From Clostridiales bacterium (GTDB lineage: Bacteria > Bacillota > Clostridia > Christensenellales > Aristaeellaceae): DNA of 64,000 bases. The stretch's first letter is position 1. Each line of letters begins with the position of its first letter. The notes beneath the pieces are model-generated. The model worked only from the letters and a program-made list of their open reading frames with translations, did not search any database and was not told where the DNA came from. Below, piece by piece: positions 6,137 through 13,123 of the stretch. The stretch spans positions 434,001 to 498,000 of the forward strand of contig CP069419.1 of assembly GCA_017569285.1 (NCBI GenBank), given 5' to 3'. The position numbers were made by a program, and so were the translations under genes.

Positions 6137-6832
6137 AAGTAAAACCGGCGTAGCCGGTGGCTTTTCTTATGCGGCCATAGGCCTAGAATACTAGCCCGCG
6201 CCCTCGCAGGCGCAATTACGGTCTGCCAACCGCGTAGACAGTTACTGGCCACCCGTAAACGGGTTATCGTTGGCCTTTCCCAGCATTGTTAACTGTTCTC
6301 CCATCTTGTCCTCTTCCAACTAATGCCGGATATACTCTGCGATTGCCTTAGTATTCTTTCCTACCGTATCTACGTAATACCCCCGGCACCAAAATTCACG
6401 GTTCCTGTACTTGTACTTTAGTTCCCCAAACTTTTCGTAGATTAACACACTGCTTTTTCCTTTCAGGTAACCCATGAAACTTGATACCGCTACCTTGGGT
6501 GGTATGCTCACCAACATGTGGATATGATCCGGGCATACCTCTGCTTCATGGATTTCTACACCTTTCCATTCACATAACTGTCGGATGATCTTTCCGATCT
6601 CCGTTTTCTTTTCCCCGTAAAACACCATCCTTCGATACTTCGGCGCAAACACTATGTGATATTTGCAGTTCCATCTCGTGTGTGCTAAACTCTGTAAGTC
6701 GTTAGCCATCTAATGACCTCCTTTTGCTCCTTTGCAGTTGGCAGACCGCATTGGCATTATAGCAAAAGGAGTTTCTCTTTCATTCGCATAGCTATAAGCT
6801 CTCCCGAACCCCACGCCTAGCGTGGGGTTTTA
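6137..6832 (-). mobile_element. IS200-type insertion sequence
   Basis: About 0.7 kb, the usual size for an IS200 group element with one transposase gene. Instead of long terminal inverted repeats it has subterminal hairpins: ACCGGC/GCCGGT at 6144-6158 on one side and CCCCACGC/GCGTGGGG at 6810-6828 on the other. Both ends lie next to ATGAA. A GGTCTGCCAAC segment near 6223 recurs inverted near 6735. The exact cleavage points are estimated from the hairpins. Confidence 0.8.
6320..6709 (-). CDS. tnpA: IS200-type Y1 transposase, cut by an in-frame TAG
   Basis: A single-strand DNA transposase of the HUH/Y1 group. The HUH histidines are H62 and H64 (DHIHML) and the nucleophile is predicted to be Tyr126 in AEYIRH, which lies just before the stop. 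AAAGGAGG precedes the ATG at 6709. The frame closes at TAG (6322-6320), exactly where the family normally has a conserved Gln (the YIxNQ-type motif). The same frame continues for 25 codons to TAA at 6244-6242, encoding LEEDKMGEQL...NPFTGGQ, which resembles the normal family C-terminus. A single CAG-to-TAG change explains this. Either the protein is truncated by 26 residues, or the amber codon is read through. The catalytic residues remain. Confidence 0.85.
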   Translation of the reverse strand: MANDLQSLAHTRWNCKYHIVFAPKYRRMVFYGEKKTEIGKIIRQLCEWKGVEIHEAEVCPDHIHMLVSIPPKVAVSSFMGYLKGKSSVLIYEKFGELKYKYRNREFWCRGYYVDTVGKNTKAIAEYIRH

Positions 6833-6837
6833 TGAAT

Positions 6838-6872
6838 ACAAAAAGGCCGCCGCACATCTTGTGCGGCGGCCC
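6838..6872 (-). terminator. Terminator of the solute-binding protein gene
   Basis: On the minus strand the 11-bp stem GGCCGCCGCAC/GTGCGGCGGCC is followed by TTTTT. It lies 35 bases beyond the stop codon, directly beside the IS200 end. Confidence 0.88.
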
Positions 6873-6906: not shown

Positions 6907-8382
6907 TTATTCAGCAGCGGGAGCCTCTTCAGCAGCTTCTGCAGCGGCAGCAGCGGCAGCAGCTTCTTCAGCAGCGTTCTCAGCGTCAACTTCTTCCTGA
7001 GTCTTGACGCCATTGAACACGTCCATCAGATCCTGCCAGAATCCCTTGGATTCTTCAACAGCCTGGGCCGGTCCCTTGCTGTTGATCGGTCCCCACAGCA
7101 GCGCGCTGCCCAGCACGTCGTTGGTGGAGCCCAGGTTGAAGGTGTAGTTCGGAGCGCTGTGCTCGGGCTCACGCATCATGGCGTAGGTCTCGTCAACAGC
7201 ACGCTCGTCGGTCTTGTTGTACTTGTTGCCGATCCAGTTGTCTTCGGAATCGGTGCCAGGCACATCGTCGGTGTACAGGTCATAGATCATCTGGATCTTC
7301 TCGGAAACTTCGGGGCTGTAGACGTTCGGGATGCCGTAGATGTTGTCGCAAGCCATGGCCTTGTAGGTCTCAGCATTGGGTCCCTTCGGAACCATCACAG
7401 CGCCCCACTCGTCCTGCATGTCATCCATTTCAGCACCGTCGTTGAAGCCCTGCCAGGTCTGGCCGGCGTAGAACGCGGAGGTGCCTTCTTCCCAATAGGT
7501 CTTGAACCAGTCCCAGTTGGCGCCTTCGGGCGTCGGGCAGGCGTACTTGTCCCAAACCTTGACGCGCTCATCCAGAGCGTCCAGGGCAGCCTGGCTGTCA
7601 ACGGCCAGGGTGATCTTGCCGTTTTCGTCCTTGTCGAAGAAGGAAGCGCCATTGGCGAACACCAGGGCAACCGCCATGTCATCACCGGAACCGGTCAGGC
7701 CGTAGATGTCGATGATGCCGTCGTTGTCGGTGTCACGCTGTACCTGGTCCATGATGTTTTCCCATGCTTCCCAGGTCCAGGTGCCGTCCGCCTGCATGTC
7801 ATAGATGGTGTTCCAGTCGATACCGGCCTCTTCCAGCACGCGCTTGTTGAAGAACAGGCAGCTGCGGGGCTCGGTCTTGCCAACGTGCACGCCCAGGACC
7901 TTGCCGTCCTTGGTCATGAAGTTGGTGGTAACAGGATTCCACTTTTCAGCGGACAGGTCGATGGTCCAGGGCATATACAGGTCATTCTTCAGGGTCGCGG
8001 GAGCAAAGTCAGCCGCGATCGCGATGATGCACCAGTCGCCTTCATCGCCCTTGCCGTTCAGACCGCCATTCATGTTGATGTTGGTCAGTTCAGCGGGGTT
8101 GCCGGACCAGTCGCTCAGAGCGGTCTCAACGATCTTGACGTTGTAGGTCGCTTCGAGCCAGTCACGGTAGTCATACAGGGCCTGGGTTTCAGCATCGGGT
8201 TCAGCCTGACGGGTGCTGTGTTCAGCATCGTCATTTCCCCACCAGTCATAGATGTAGACCGTGCGGCCGCCAAAGTCAAGGCCTTCGATCACTTCGGGAT
8301 AACCTTCGGGAGCTTCGGCCATCGCGCTGCACATACCCAGCAGCATCATAGCGGCCAGAACCAGAGCCAGGATTTTCTTCAT
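6907..8382 (-). CDS. Extracellular solute-binding protein, sugar ABC importer
   Basis: A 491-residue exported binding protein. The signal peptide covers about residues 1-23 (MKKILALVLAAMMLLGMCSA, then MAEAP). The Cys after LGM is not in a standard lipobox, so lipoprotein anchoring is uncertain. The middle has the features of family 1 solute-binding proteins: WTWEAWENIMDQVQRD, a DMAVALVFANGA segment and a W/Y-rich ligand region. The last 25 residues are almost only Ala and Glu, an unusual low-complexity tail. It has its own promoter and a strong terminator, downstream of a permease pair in the same direction, so it is expected to be the abundant receptor for that pair. AAAGGAGG precedes the ATG. 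The ligand is probably an oligosaccharide (inference). Confidence 0.88.
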   Translation of the reverse strand: MKKILALVLAAMMLLGMCSAMAEAPEGYPEVIEGLDFGGRTVYIYDWWGNDDAEHSTRQAEPDAETQALYDYRDWLEATYNVKIVETALSDWSGNPAELTNINMNGGLNGKGDEGDWCIIAIAADFAPATLKNDLYMPWTIDLSAEKWNPVTTNFMTKDGKVLGVHVGKTEPRSCLFFNKRVLEEAGIDWNTIYDMQADGTWTWEAWENIMDQVQRDTDNDGIIDIYGLTGSGDDMAVALVFANGASFFDKDENGKITLAVDSQAALDALDERVKVWDKYACPTPEGANWDWFKTYWEEGTSAFYAGQTWQGFNDGAEMDDMQDEWGAVMVPKGPNAETYKAMACDNIYGIPNVYSPEVSEKIQMIYDLYTDDVPGTDSEDNWIGNKYNKTDERAVDETYAMMREPEHSAPNYTFNLGSTNDVLGSALLWGPINSKGPAQAVEESKGFWQDLMDVFNGVKTQEEVDAENAAEEAAAAAAAAEAAEEAPAAE

Positions 8383-8471
8383 ACGAGAAAACCTCCTTTT
8401 TTATTTCCTTACGGACCTCTCACAAAGCCCGTATAGGTGCGTTATTATGCGATCTTTTTCCTCGCAGGCAG

Positions 8472-8500
8472 ATTATATACCACATCCGACAAAGATTCAA
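8472..8500 (-). promoter_or_regulatory. Promoter of the solute-binding protein gene
   Basis: On the minus strand TTGAAT, 17 bases, then a perfect TATAAT. It gives the last gene of the transporter locus separate, probably stronger, expression. Confidence 0.8.
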
Positions 8501-8554
8501 GTATTGTTGCGGTTTTTTTCGCCATTTTCGTGTCAGTTGTCTGTACTTTTCCGG

Positions 8555-9565
8555 TTACTCCTTGGAGCCCGTCATGGCCAGGCTTTCCACGAACGTCCGC
8601 TGCGTGAAGCAGTACAGGATGATCAGCGGAATGCAGCAGAACAGCACCGCGATGGAAATCAGCTGCAGCTGGCGTCCGTTCGGTACGATGACCGACTGGG
8701 TGGCGTCGCTGGAGAAATAGCGGCCCATCCGGCTGACCATCGTGCTCATCTGCACGGCGAATGTCCGGTAGCTGGTCAGGAAGTTCCGGGAGTAGAACAG
8801 GTCGGTCCACTGCCATACAAAGCTGAACAGGAAACAGCTGGCAATTGTCGGAACGGCGTCCGGCAGCATGATTTTCACAAACGTATGCATCGTGCCGCAG
8901 CCGTCCACATAAGCTGCCTCTTCCAGGCTCATCGGAACGTTCTTGAAGTACTGCCGCATCATGTAGATGAACAGTCCGTTCTTCAGGCCCATGCAGGTCA
9001 GGCTCATGATGACGTAGGGTGCCATTGAGGACCGCAGGTTCACCGTATCGCCCGTAAGCGCCTTGATGATTCCGAACAGGTCAAACTGGGCGAATGTGAT
9101 ATACAGGGAGGTCTGGATCGTCTGCGGCGGAATGATGATCAGCAGCACCACGCAGGCGAACCAGAATTTCTTCAGCGGGAATTCGTACCGGGCAAACCCG
9201 TAAGCCACCAGGGTCGCCGCAACAACCTGGCAGATCGAGATCACAATGGAAATCCACAGCGTGTTGATCATGGATTCCGGGAAGCTCGTCAGGTCCGCCA
9301 CAATCCGGTAGTTGTCCAGCGTCACATGGCGCGGAAGCAGGATGATGGTGGAGTCATACAGGTCTTTCTCCTCCATCAGGCTCATGGAGAAACGGGTCAG
9401 CATGGGCTGGATGATCATAAAGCACAGGCCGAACATCAGCAGTGCGCGGACAACGGAAACCACAATTTCCTTGACCCTGCGCTTCAGCAGGTATCCTTCA
9501 CTGCGGCGGTTCCGGGTCCAGAAGTCCTGGCTTTTCCCGATGAATACCGTGTTGTCCTTACTCAT
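8555..9565 (-). CDS. CUT1 ABC permease, MalG type
   Basis: A 336-residue inner-membrane permease with six main helices. The EAA loop that contacts the ATPase is visible as EEAAYVDGCGTMHTFVKIMLP. The cytoplasmic N-terminus is about 35 residues. Its start overlaps the end of the upstream MalF-type gene by 8 bases, showing translational coupling. No ATPase gene lies in the locus, so a shared MsmX/UgpC-type ATPase encoded elsewhere is expected. Confidence 0.92.
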   Translation of the reverse strand: MSKDNTVFIGKSQDFWTRNRRSEGYLLKRRVKEIVVSVVRALLMFGLCFMIIQPMLTRFSMSLMEEKDLYDSTIILLPRHVTLDNYRIVADLTSFPESMINTLWISIVISICQVVAATLVAYGFARYEFPLKKFWFACVVLLIIIPPQTIQTSLYITFAQFDLFGIIKALTGDTVNLRSSMAPYVIMSLTCMGLKNGLFIYMMRQYFKNVPMSLEEAAYVDGCGTMHTFVKIMLPDAVPTIASCFLFSFVWQWTDLFYSRNFLTSYRTFAVQMSTMVSRMGRYFSSDATQSVIVPNGRQLQLISIAVLFCCIPLIILYCFTQRTFVESLAMTGSKE

Positions 9566-10544
9566 AAGACTTCACCGCCCTTGTGATGATAAATGTGCTG
9601 ATTCCGATGAACAGCAGGGCAACGCCGAAGTAGATCCAGCTCATGGCGGAAGCCACGCCGAAGTCCATCCGGACGCCGTACATAACGTCATTGATCTTCT
9701 CAATGACCCGGTTGTCGTTCTTCATGAAGAAGTCGATAATCGTGTAGATGCAGTTCACCAGCAGCAGCGGGCTGACCATCGGGAAGGTGATCTTCCAGAA
9801 GGATTCCCATGCGGAGCAGCCTTCCACATCCGCCGCTTCATACAGTGACGGGGAGATGGACTGCAGGCCGCTCAGGAATACGATGATCTGGATGCCGCTG
9901 GCCATAACAATGTCGTAAATCGCGTTGATCATCTGGAAGACAACGTCGAATACTTCGCCGGCCACACCGGAAACCTGCAGCAGTTCCTGCAGCGATGCCG
10001 CAATATCCACGCCGGATGAGTTCTGCACCGAGTTGCCGATATCCGTCATCATGTTGTAGAACTCATTGGAGCTTTCGATGCCGGGCAGCACGCCGGAGGA
10101 CAGGATAACCGGCAGGAAGAAGATGATCCGGCACAGGATCCGTCCCTTGAACTTCTGGTTCAGGATTACGGCGATTACGAAGCTCAGCACCAGGGTGGCG
10201 ATCGTGTTGATCACCATCCGGCTGATCTCATCCACCAGGTACTGGTTATAGTTCGGGTCGGTCTGCAGCGCGTAATGATAGTTGTAGAAATCATTCCACG
10301 TCATGGTGAAACCGCCGCCGCGGATCAGGTTCACCTCATTCAGGCTCATCTGCAGCGACATCACCAGCGGGCGGACCATAAAGAAGATAAACCCGATGAT
10401 GAACGGAAGGATAAACAGGGTCCCGGTCCGGGCGCGCCTGGCCGGCATGGTATGGTACAGCTTATTTCCGGGAATATACATCTGAATGGCTTCCGTAATG
10501 CCGCTGTACCAGTGTTCCCGGCGTTTCCGCGTTTTCTTGCTCAC
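9558..10544 (-). CDS. CUT1 ABC permease, MalF type
   Basis: A 328-residue permease with six predicted helices and the EAA loop YEAADVEGCSAWESFWKITFP. The region between helices 3 and 4 is long and polar (about residues 155-210), longer than in a minimal CUT1 permease, and probably forms an external loop. The first 30 residues are basic and cytoplasmic. It overlaps the DUF5696-like gene upstream by 4 bases and the MalG-type gene downstream by 8 bases, so the three are one translational unit. It pairs with the MalG-type protein to form the membrane channel. Confidence 0.92.
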   Translation of the reverse strand: MSKKTRKRREHWYSGITEAIQMYIPGNKLYHTMPARRARTGTLFILPFIIGFIFFMVRPLVMSLQMSLNEVNLIRGGGFTMTWNDFYNYHYALQTDPNYNQYLVDEISRMVINTIATLVLSFVIAVILNQKFKGRILCRIIFFLPVILSSGVLPGIESSNEFYNMMTDIGNSVQNSSGVDIAASLQELLQVSGVAGEVFDVVFQMINAIYDIVMASGIQIIVFLSGLQSISPSLYEAADVEGCSAWESFWKITFPMVSPLLLVNCIYTIIDFFMKNDNRVIEKINDVMYGVRMDFGVASAMSWIYFGVALLFIGISTFIITRAVKSYE

Positions 10545-13123
10545 TGCCCGTTCCCCCTTTCAACCTTATAGTCTCTGGCGGGAATCACGGTTCCGCCGTC
10601 CTTGTAATCCCGGTTGCTGTAGTTGACATATACCTTGGTGCCATCTGCGTATTCCGTAACGGAAACTTCCTTGGACAGCTGTTCATGGCCGGTGATATTC
10701 TGCCGGTTCAGTCCGGCCATCTCCGCCTGGTAGCGCAGGATCACCGGCGTCAGGATCTCTTTCCACCGGTCATAGGATGCGGAACGGTAGCAGGAATACT
10801 TGGAGTCCTGCAGCACCGGCGTATCTTCCTTCATGAAGGTGAAATTCAGTCCGGCGCCGTATTCCGCACATTCCAGCAGGGCTGTCTGGTAGTCGCCCGC
10901 CAGGTTGATTGATTCTCCGGTGTAATCTTTCATTCCGTGGATTGCGATCTGGTAAAAGGGAATCCGCTGATCGATAATCGCATAGGTGTTGCCGGTCAGG
11001 TTCATGTCGGTAATCATATCCGCATACGGAATGGCGTAATTGTTGCCTTCCTTGATGCTGATCTTCAGCCCCTTGGCCACCGCGTCCCGGAGGGTGTTGA
11101 TATTCATTTCCTTCACCTGTTCCCGGGTTATGGTGTTCTGGGCGTAATAGTCCGCGCTCAGCAGGTTGCCGATATCGCGGAATGCGACGCCGGCTGCGCT
11201 GCGGTCCTTCAGCGCGTTGATCAGGTTATCCGCGCATTTCTGGGCGTATTCCGGCCGTACCAGGTAATATGGATCCATCCCCGACCAGTCAGCCTGCTGG
11301 TAGGTAACAATATCATAGTTGTAAATAATCGCCTGTTCACGGGTGGTAAACCGGGCTGCATTTGAGAACGGAAGGAAACCATCGAGCAGTCCGCTGTCAT
11401 AGGCAAAGCAGGAAATACCGTCAAAGAACAGGTTCACGCCCTGTTCAGAAGCATGGGCGATCAGTTTCTTCATGCCGCTGTCGCCGCCCAGCTCATTCAG
11501 GGTATGCACCCCGGTCAGTACCTTCTGCCAGACGCCGCCGTTGGCCCACCCGGTCATCCGGACGTTCAGGTCCCTGATGCCGCTGTCCTTCAGCTCGTCG
11601 ATGATGCTTCCCGCCTGGTCAAATGTAGTCAGTGCCACAACCGATTTGACCGGCATGCCCAGCTTCGGTACTTTCTTGTCAATCGCGCCGACCAGTTCCA
11701 CATTCACCGGAATATCCGCGCTGGCCGTTTCGTTCCGCAGTTCCGGATCGCGGCGGAGATACTGGCTGTAGATATTGGCAAGCTCCACATAGCTGTCGTT
11801 GTCCGTAAAGAAGTACCGCTGGACCGCCGTGTCGTTCGGGATGGCCTGCTCGTACATATACAGCAGGGACGCGGTCCGGTTGGAAACGTTGAATTTGTCA
11901 TAATGGATGACGTTGTACTTGGGATAGATAAAGTTGTAATTGTTGAACCGTCCGGCGATATCCGCGTTGATTCCGGCATAGGAGCTGGCGCCTTCAATGA
12001 CGCATACAAACGATCCGTCCGGCTGTCCCATGCCGAATACCGGGAACGCGTTCCGCGTTTCGCTGATGACTTCCTTTCTTTCCGTGGCGTAGTCCCATCC
12101 GTACAGGTTGGCGTAATACGCGCTCTGGGAAAGCTTTCCGTTGTTGTATCTGATCAGGGCGCCGCCGCCTTCCGGAAGCAGCATATATCCTTCCTGATCC
12201 GTTCCGGCAGCGCCGAAATACGGCAGCACGCTGACGAACGACATCGGATAGTCACCCTCGCACCGGAGGCTGTCATAGGGCACTTCCACAACCAGTTCGT
12301 CCCCGTCCAGGCGGTAAACCACAGACGCGTTGAAAACCGGTCCGTTGTTGCTCTTCGCTTCAGCCACCAGCTCCATATCAACCGCAAACTCTTCCTCGTT
12401 GTATCCGGCATCCCGGAACAGGGCTTCCAGTTTTCCCTTGTTGGTGGAGGATGTGTCGGATTTCAGGATATAGAGTGCCTGGTCAACCACGGATGGATAC
12501 CGGGCAATAATCTCTTCCTTGTTCTCCTTCTTGTCCAGCTTGGAGGGTTCGTACAGGGAATAGTTGCTCGAAACCTGCTTCTTGTTCTTCTTGCTCATAT
12601 TCCCGGTGAACTGCTCGTATCTTTCCTCGGTCATCGCAATCGGCAGGACGAATTTCTTCTCGATTTTGCCGATGGCGTAATTCACCCGGATGGAGCCGTC
12701 CTCGCCGGGAACGATCTCAAAGTTCTGGTTCTGGATGGAATAGCTGAAGTTGTTCAGCTCGACTTCACCGCCGCTGGTGGTATAGGTCACGTTCAGCGTG
12801 GAGGACAGGGCTTCCTTGTTGACGCCCCGGGCCACCGGATCCTTGTCCCTGTCCGCCGGGTTGGAGTTCCATACCTTCCCCGTCTTCTTGTCGGTCAGGG
12901 CGAACTGGGTGGTCGCAGGATCCATTTCAAACAGGAGGCGGTCTGTTTCCATTTTCAGCGGGTCGTTCTTTCCTTCGTATTCATAAACGACCGGATCAGC
13001 CCCGAAGCTTGTTTCCTGCTGGGAATAAATCGGAACGAATACGAAGATAATCAGTGCCGCAATCGCTGCCAGGATAATCAGCCACGGTAGAAGCCGCAGG
13101 ATGAGGGATCTCTTCTTTTTCAT
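10541..13123 (-). CDS. DUF5696-like membrane-anchored exoprotein, possible glycosidase fold
   Basis: An 860-residue protein with one N-terminal membrane helix (residues about 10-31, after MKKKRSLILR) and a large outside part. Residues 40-430 appear beta-rich. Residues about 490-780 look like an alternating alpha/beta barrel with an acidic patch (NLFFDGISCFAYDSG, GVAFRDIGNLLSADY) reminiscent of retaining glycoside hydrolases. A short C-terminal domain (EVSVTEYADGTKVYVNYSNR) follows. Proteins of this type (DUF5696) are common in Bacillota sugar-transport operons and have no proven activity. Here it lies between a Yip1-like gene and a permease pair, which fits trimming or sensing of the imported glycan at the cell surface. 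AAGGAGGGAG precedes the ATG. The domain name is recalled from family resemblance, not searched. Confidence 0.75.
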   Translation of the reverse strand: MKKKRSLILRLLPWLIILAAIAALIIFVFVPIYSQQETSFGADPVVYEYEGKNDPLKMETDRLLFEMDPATTQFALTDKKTGKVWNSNPADRDKDPVARGVNKEALSSTLNVTYTTSGGEVELNNFSYSIQNQNFEIVPGEDGSIRVNYAIGKIEKKFVLPIAMTEERYEQFTGNMSKKNKKQVSSNYSLYEPSKLDKKENKEEIIARYPSVVDQALYILKSDTSSTNKGKLEALFRDAGYNEEEFAVDMELVAEAKSNNGPVFNASVVYRLDGDELVVEVPYDSLRCEGDYPMSFVSVLPYFGAAGTDQEGYMLLPEGGGALIRYNNGKLSQSAYYANLYGWDYATERKEVISETRNAFPVFGMGQPDGSFVCVIEGASSYAGINADIAGRFNNYNFIYPKYNVIHYDKFNVSNRTASLLYMYEQAIPNDTAVQRYFFTDNDSYVELANIYSQYLRRDPELRNETASADIPVNVELVGAIDKKVPKLGMPVKSVVALTTFDQAGSIIDELKDSGIRDLNVRMTGWANGGVWQKVLTGVHTLNELGGDSGMKKLIAHASEQGVNLFFDGISCFAYDSGLLDGFLPFSNAARFTTREQAIIYNYDIVTYQQADWSGMDPYYLVRPEYAQKCADNLINALKDRSAAGVAFRDIGNLLSADYYAQNTITREQVKEMNINTLRDAVAKGLKISIKEGNNYAIPYADMITDMNLTGNTYAIIDQRIPFYQIAIHGMKDYTGESINLAGDYQTALLECAEYGAGLNFTFMKEDTPVLQDSKYSCYRSASYDRWKEILTPVILRYQAEMAGLNRQNITGHEQLSKEVSVTEYADGTKVYVNYSNRDYKDGGTVIPARDYKVERGNGQ

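Follow-up and report, generated by a model that had tools for sequence, protein, structure and literature searches.

An in-frame TAG at a conserved glutamine codon of an IS200-type transposase is very probably an ordinary nonsense mutation

We analysed a 64,000-nucleotide stretch of DNA from a Clostridiales bacterium (contig CP069419.1, positions 434,001 to 498,000; referred to as the window) that carries an IS200-type element whose transposase gene, tnpA, is closed by an in-frame TAG. This TAG is very probably an ordinary nonsense mutation in one copy of the element, in a genome in which TAG serves as a rare, normal stop. The first of the options given in an earlier note on this DNA, that a mobile element in a TAG-sparing genome had acquired a nonsense mutation, is supported here by an intact release factor 1 (RF1), by the tRNA complement and by the Gln codons of the sibling copies.

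The tnpA frame of the window lies on the minus strand, starts at 6709 and after 129 codons reaches a TAG (6322-6320), the same codon at which the earlier note had closed the gene. The family-like tail reported beyond the TAG was also found, extending for 25 more in-frame codons without a further stop to a TAA at 6244-6242. The features of the frame are as follows.

6320 to 6709, minus strand: tnpA frame as far as the TAG (129 codons and the stop), matching the transposase family Y1_Tnp (PF01797) with 136.7 bits against a cut-off of 23
6320 to 6322, minus strand: in-frame TAG, aligned with Q131 of IS608 (copy comparison, PDB alignment, and excerpts of PMC5934647 and PMC6006769)
6242 to 6319, minus strand: family-like tail 3′ of the TAG, 25 codons and the TAA (frame reading and alignment of relatives)

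We then compared the codon at this position across 85 loci. TAG was present in the window copy only, and a Gln codon was found at all 84 other loci, which comprise four sibling copies in the same genome and 80 relatives in named genomes (the top 80 among at least 591 confirmed matches). Two additional copies from the same genus have Gln there too. This bears out the claim that the TAG falls on a conserved Gln near the catalytic Tyr; CAG, whose presence in other copies the earlier note had set as one condition for a simple nonsense mutation, was found at 37 loci, and 47 have CAA. Three of the siblings retain the full frame of 155 residues, and the fourth is frameshifted upstream.

The Gln lies four residues past the catalytic Tyr and aligns with Q131 of the IS608 TnpA in the PDB alignment. 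Excerpts of PMC5934647 and PMC6006769 describe Q131 as a divalent-metal ligand that is essential for transposition in vivo. A stop at this position would take away a catalytic residue besides the tail. On the helix of the catalytic Tyr, the codon for the Gln that binds the metal would have become TAG by nonsense mutation, and at this TAG RF1 should stop translation, and the resulting 129-residue protein, lacking the metal ligand, should be inactive.

Matches carrying stops were looked for across 61 genomes. Interruptions by TGA were seen in G040 and, in its second frame, in the frameshifted copy of the same genome as the window; those in G011, G013 and one G038 match were TAA, and a weak 34-residue match in G046 had both TGA and TAG inside. 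The stop in G040 is at query position 35, and those in G011 and G013 are at position 134, with Gln 130 kept. Among these stop-carrying matches of the 61 genomes, where the stops of G038, the frameshifted copy and G046 lie outside the realigned stretch, none had TAG at the Gln.

A TAG placed exactly on a conserved Gln, in a genome where TAG stops are rare, could also be expected if UAG were reassigned or efficiently suppressed in this organism, perhaps to Gln. We consider this extremely improbable, both from the decoding machinery and from the use of TAG elsewhere in the genome. The gene for RF1, prfA, is intact (441.1 bits against a cut-off of 423.25) and encodes both the PVT and the GGQ motif, while a second release factor match carries SPF and GGQ; we presume that these motifs have their recognised roles in the two factors. 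The prfA search, suggested earlier as a check, thus contradicts the loss of RF1 in the option of its loss or weakness. No CUA anticodon was present among the 48 tRNAs detected with the Rfam tRNA model and read by ARAGORN, in a genome record that is 97.05% complete and could for that reason still miss an odd tRNA; the anticodon listed as 'tag' belongs to a Leu tRNA and not to a suppressor. No match to PylS was found in the genome. With prfA intact and neither a CUA tRNA nor PylS detected, UAG appears to be an ordinary stop in this genome. Suppression or reassignment, another of the options raised before, is opposed by these observations, by the Gln codons at the other loci and by conserved genes that are closed by TAG near their natural ends. 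RF1 loss, UAG recoding and a Pyl system were rejected on the basis of prfA, the tRNAs, PylS and the Gln of the siblings.

The use of TAG as a stop was examined with a codon-usage gene caller, which is stricter than the list used before (45 genes against 52) and leaves tnpA itself uncalled. The 45 genes of the window end in TAA (23) or TGA (22), and the earlier report that no gene in the window ends in TAG therefore holds on an independent gene list. Between about 30300 and 36000 the window has only short scattered ORFs, with dense coding on both sides. The sample for the genome consisted of the window and of 20 stretches, each of 20 kb, spread over the chromosome (464 kb in total, out of 3.27 Mb). 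The 324 genes called in this sample end in TAA (156), TGA (158) and TAG (10, or 3.1%); the TAG-ended genes were 10/279 outside the window, 6/268 at call scores above 40 and 1/142 at scores above 100. Samples of three genomes of the same genus (G002, G023 and G036) gave 3/301. At the rate of 10/279, the chance of finding no TAG is 0.19 for 45 genes and 0.15 for 52, and it is 0.31 for 52 genes when the same-genus samples are pooled (13/580). With such probabilities, of about 0.15-0.3, a TAG-free window is unremarkable.

Outside the called genes, a background that contains some genes missed by the caller, TAG made up 1097 of 8092 stop triplets (13.6%) as against 10/324 gene ends, an approximately four-fold depletion at the ends. 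TAG in this genome is a rare stop, not an absent one. In the sample taken here for the stop-codon count proposed in the earlier note, TAG is an ordinary stop that is seldom used. TAG was a very rare stop in the samples of G000 (the genome of the window), G002, G023 and G036, though G000 has RF1. According to an excerpt of PMC8789281, TGA use in bacteria rises with G+C and TAG use does not.

Protein-family scans covered each of the ten TAG-ended proteins, and in six of them the match reaches the end of the family profile or comes close to it. The matches to RadC, C_GCAxxG and DUF6483 are full-length and over the family cut-off; those to a GH1 glycosidase, a HAD hydrolase and an ABC permease are full-length and below it, with the wider family or domain over it. 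In the remaining four, an HIGH_NTase match stops 33 positions short of the profile end, a longer protein has a deaminase domain close to its start, one protein is helicase-like, and a methyltransferase match falls below the cut-off. Coding-like sequence follows the stop at 2 of the 10 TAG ends, 20 of the 156 TAA ends and 10 of the 158 TGA ends, and inspection by eye showed that behind both TAG ends it belongs to a separate next gene. The 464-kb sample is thus in agreement with the earlier statement that conserved genes contain no in-frame TAG.

The element itself was delimited by comparison with empty sites in G015 and G028, in which flanks 94-99% identical to those of the window meet at 6138/6840; the sibling L001, of 707 bp, ends at the same point. 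The insertion divides the TTTTTT of both empty sites into TTTTT and T, with a short target and no duplication, as in the IS200 group.

6138 to 6839, minus strand: whole IS200-type element, 702 bp, without target-site duplication (empty site in G015, locus L209, and G028, locus L210)
6807 to 6829, minus strand: left-end hairpin with AAAAC, a candidate guide sequence, at its foot (folding and comparison)
6144 to 6158, minus strand: right-end hairpin of 6 bp, against 8 bp in each of the four siblings (folding and comparison)

The genome has five copies of the element, besides a weak match of 70 bases that a DNA search gave at another place. Compared with L001, the window copy has four substitutions and has lost 5 nt, while L002, L004 and L005 each show a single change relative to L001, which makes the window copy the most changed of the five. 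With these 5 nt gone, the right-end hairpin has 6 bp instead of 8, and its predicted stability changes from about -15.9 to -9.3 kcal/mol; mobility should be weaker still with such a hairpin.

These changes bear on two further explanations of the TAG. Leaky read-through might yield a little full-length transposase, a down-regulation kept by selection, and the tail past the TAG, intact, conserved and free of further stops, would fit this. It is nevertheless very unlikely, as the window copy has lost part of its right-end hairpin, is the most diverged of its siblings and is the only one of the compared loci with TAG (0/84 elsewhere). The conserved tail had been taken to make read-through or a very recent mutation likely, and neither is needed: descent from a common ancestor with intact sibling copies accounts for the tail, and the further changes that this copy has and its siblings lack allow for a mutation that is not very recent. 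An assembly or sequencing error, which a single-codon difference from the siblings might suggest, is highly improbable, since the other private differences, including the 5-nt loss, show that the window copy has a lineage of its own. As a history, a decaying copy with a nonsense mutation within it would be the simplest account.

The element resembles the IS200 group of the IS200/IS605 family, such as IS200C of E. coli, in having a Y1 HUH transposase alone, subterminal hairpins at the left and right ends, no target-site duplication and a size of about 700 bp; its 702 bp have space for tnpA only and none for tnpB. We take IS1541 to be a member of the same group. The layout of the left end and the neighbourhood of a hairpin plus T-run are common to the window element and E. 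coli IS200C. Unlike intact members, the window copy has a shortened right hairpin and is truncated at the Q131 position; TAG stands in place of the metal-ligand Gln that should accompany HUH and the catalytic Tyr before the stop, and the copy is a broken member of the group. The biochemically characterised TnpA of IS608 from H. pylori is a homologous transposase whose last helix has the same Y-x3-Q spacing. The target of IS608 is TTAC, and the element includes tnpB (excerpt of PMC5934647), whereas the five copies in our genome are flanked on the left by TTTTT or TTATT.

The empty sites place the insertion inside the run of six T's just 3′ of the neighbouring gene's terminator hairpin.

6840 to 6844, minus strand: TTTTT left flank, the insertion target in the T-tract of the terminator (empty site and junctions)
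6845 to 6871, minus strand: intrinsic terminator hairpin with a 12-bp stem, -25.4 kcal/mol, downstream of the 6907-8382 gene (folding)
6907 to 8382, minus strand: solute-binding-protein-like gene before the terminator (PF01547, 28.1 bits, cut-off 26)

The element went in on the T-tract strand, just 3′ of this terminator, and would have decayed later. The solute-binding gene belongs to a cluster with an ABC-transporter permease (6907-10544), which adjoins a gene on the minus strand (10544-13123) for an 860-residue protein matching DUF5696 with 618.6 bits.

Directly upstream of each of the five copies (L001-L005), on the strand of tnpA, lies a hairpin of -16.7 to -31.6 kcal/mol. An initial terminator scan scored 56 of 73 loci, against 1.6 expected from mononucleotide shuffles, after 14 of 87 loci with short upstream DNA had been dropped. 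It also scored 59/73 on the opposite strand, presumably because the left hairpin of the element was read backwards, and was therefore replaced by position-anchored folding with T-run controls. Together with the E. coli sites described below, the loci considered were L001-L005, L061-L140, L163 and L223-L232, with relatives that are, by their titles, from Clostridia, Bacilli, enterobacteria and others; in the anchored folding 22 of 86 loci were left out (12 with fewer than 200 bases upstream and 10 with no recognised left-end box). A hairpin of -8 kcal/mol or stronger closing at the T-run was found at 57 of the 64 scored loci, which include our own copies and some near copies of one another that are not all independent, compared with 355/3021 T-run controls in the same loci and 302/1920 random windows. 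At -12 kcal/mol the counts were 51/64 and 122/3021 T-run controls. Two of the scored loci lack a T-run and five fail; the latter include L005, whose strong hairpin is two bases short of the fixed rule that the other four of our copies pass. Across our own genome, 354 of 1144 T-runs of at least five passed at -8 kcal/mol and 167 at -12. For E. coli IS200C, all ten sites inspected, picked from 30 among 3752 matching records, follow a hairpin and T-run (-13.2 to -19.8 kcal/mol), while 4/23 T-runs in the E. coli flanks passed the hairpin rule.

In most loci the left hairpin has AAAAC at its foot, a sequence that could pair with a T-tract. In IS608 the target is chosen through base pairing with a guide of four bases in the corresponding place, according to an excerpt of PMC5934647. 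We propose, tentatively, that the IS200 group may be directed to intrinsic terminators: the AAAAC guide would pair with the T-tract, and the terminator hairpin, extruded on the single-stranded lagging-strand template, would form part of the target. If true, insertions would land behind genes, which would account for the wide distribution of IS200 when it is rarely observed to move or to break genes. The choice of T-tracts together with the loss of harmful insertions could also suffice for the association, although hairpin-less non-coding T-runs are common in our genome (397/545 at -8 kcal/mol). Terminator-like stem-loops at insertion sites were reportedly described for IS1541 in a 1998 paper in J. 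Bacteriol., so that the terminator association is probably an extension of an earlier report rather than new; we found no other statement of IS200 terminator targeting among titles and abstract openings. In an excerpt of PMC9208149, IS200 is over-represented between convergent genes, which fits the terminator reading. Beside it stands the statement, in part of PMC2515195 citing Beuzon 1999, that a stem-loop of IS200 is a Rho-independent terminator itself. One IS1541 insertion with a phenotype (excerpt of PMC2806898) means that a terminator rule has exceptions.

The element and its nonsense mutation are themselves ordinary. With the question of the TAG plainly answered, no follow-up on the genetic code is needed for this genome. 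The exact empty site and the strong link to terminator-like hairpins among the relatives compared provide a testable rule for where IS200 lands, and such a rule bears on why IS200 seldom disrupts genes and on the small RNAs made beside it.
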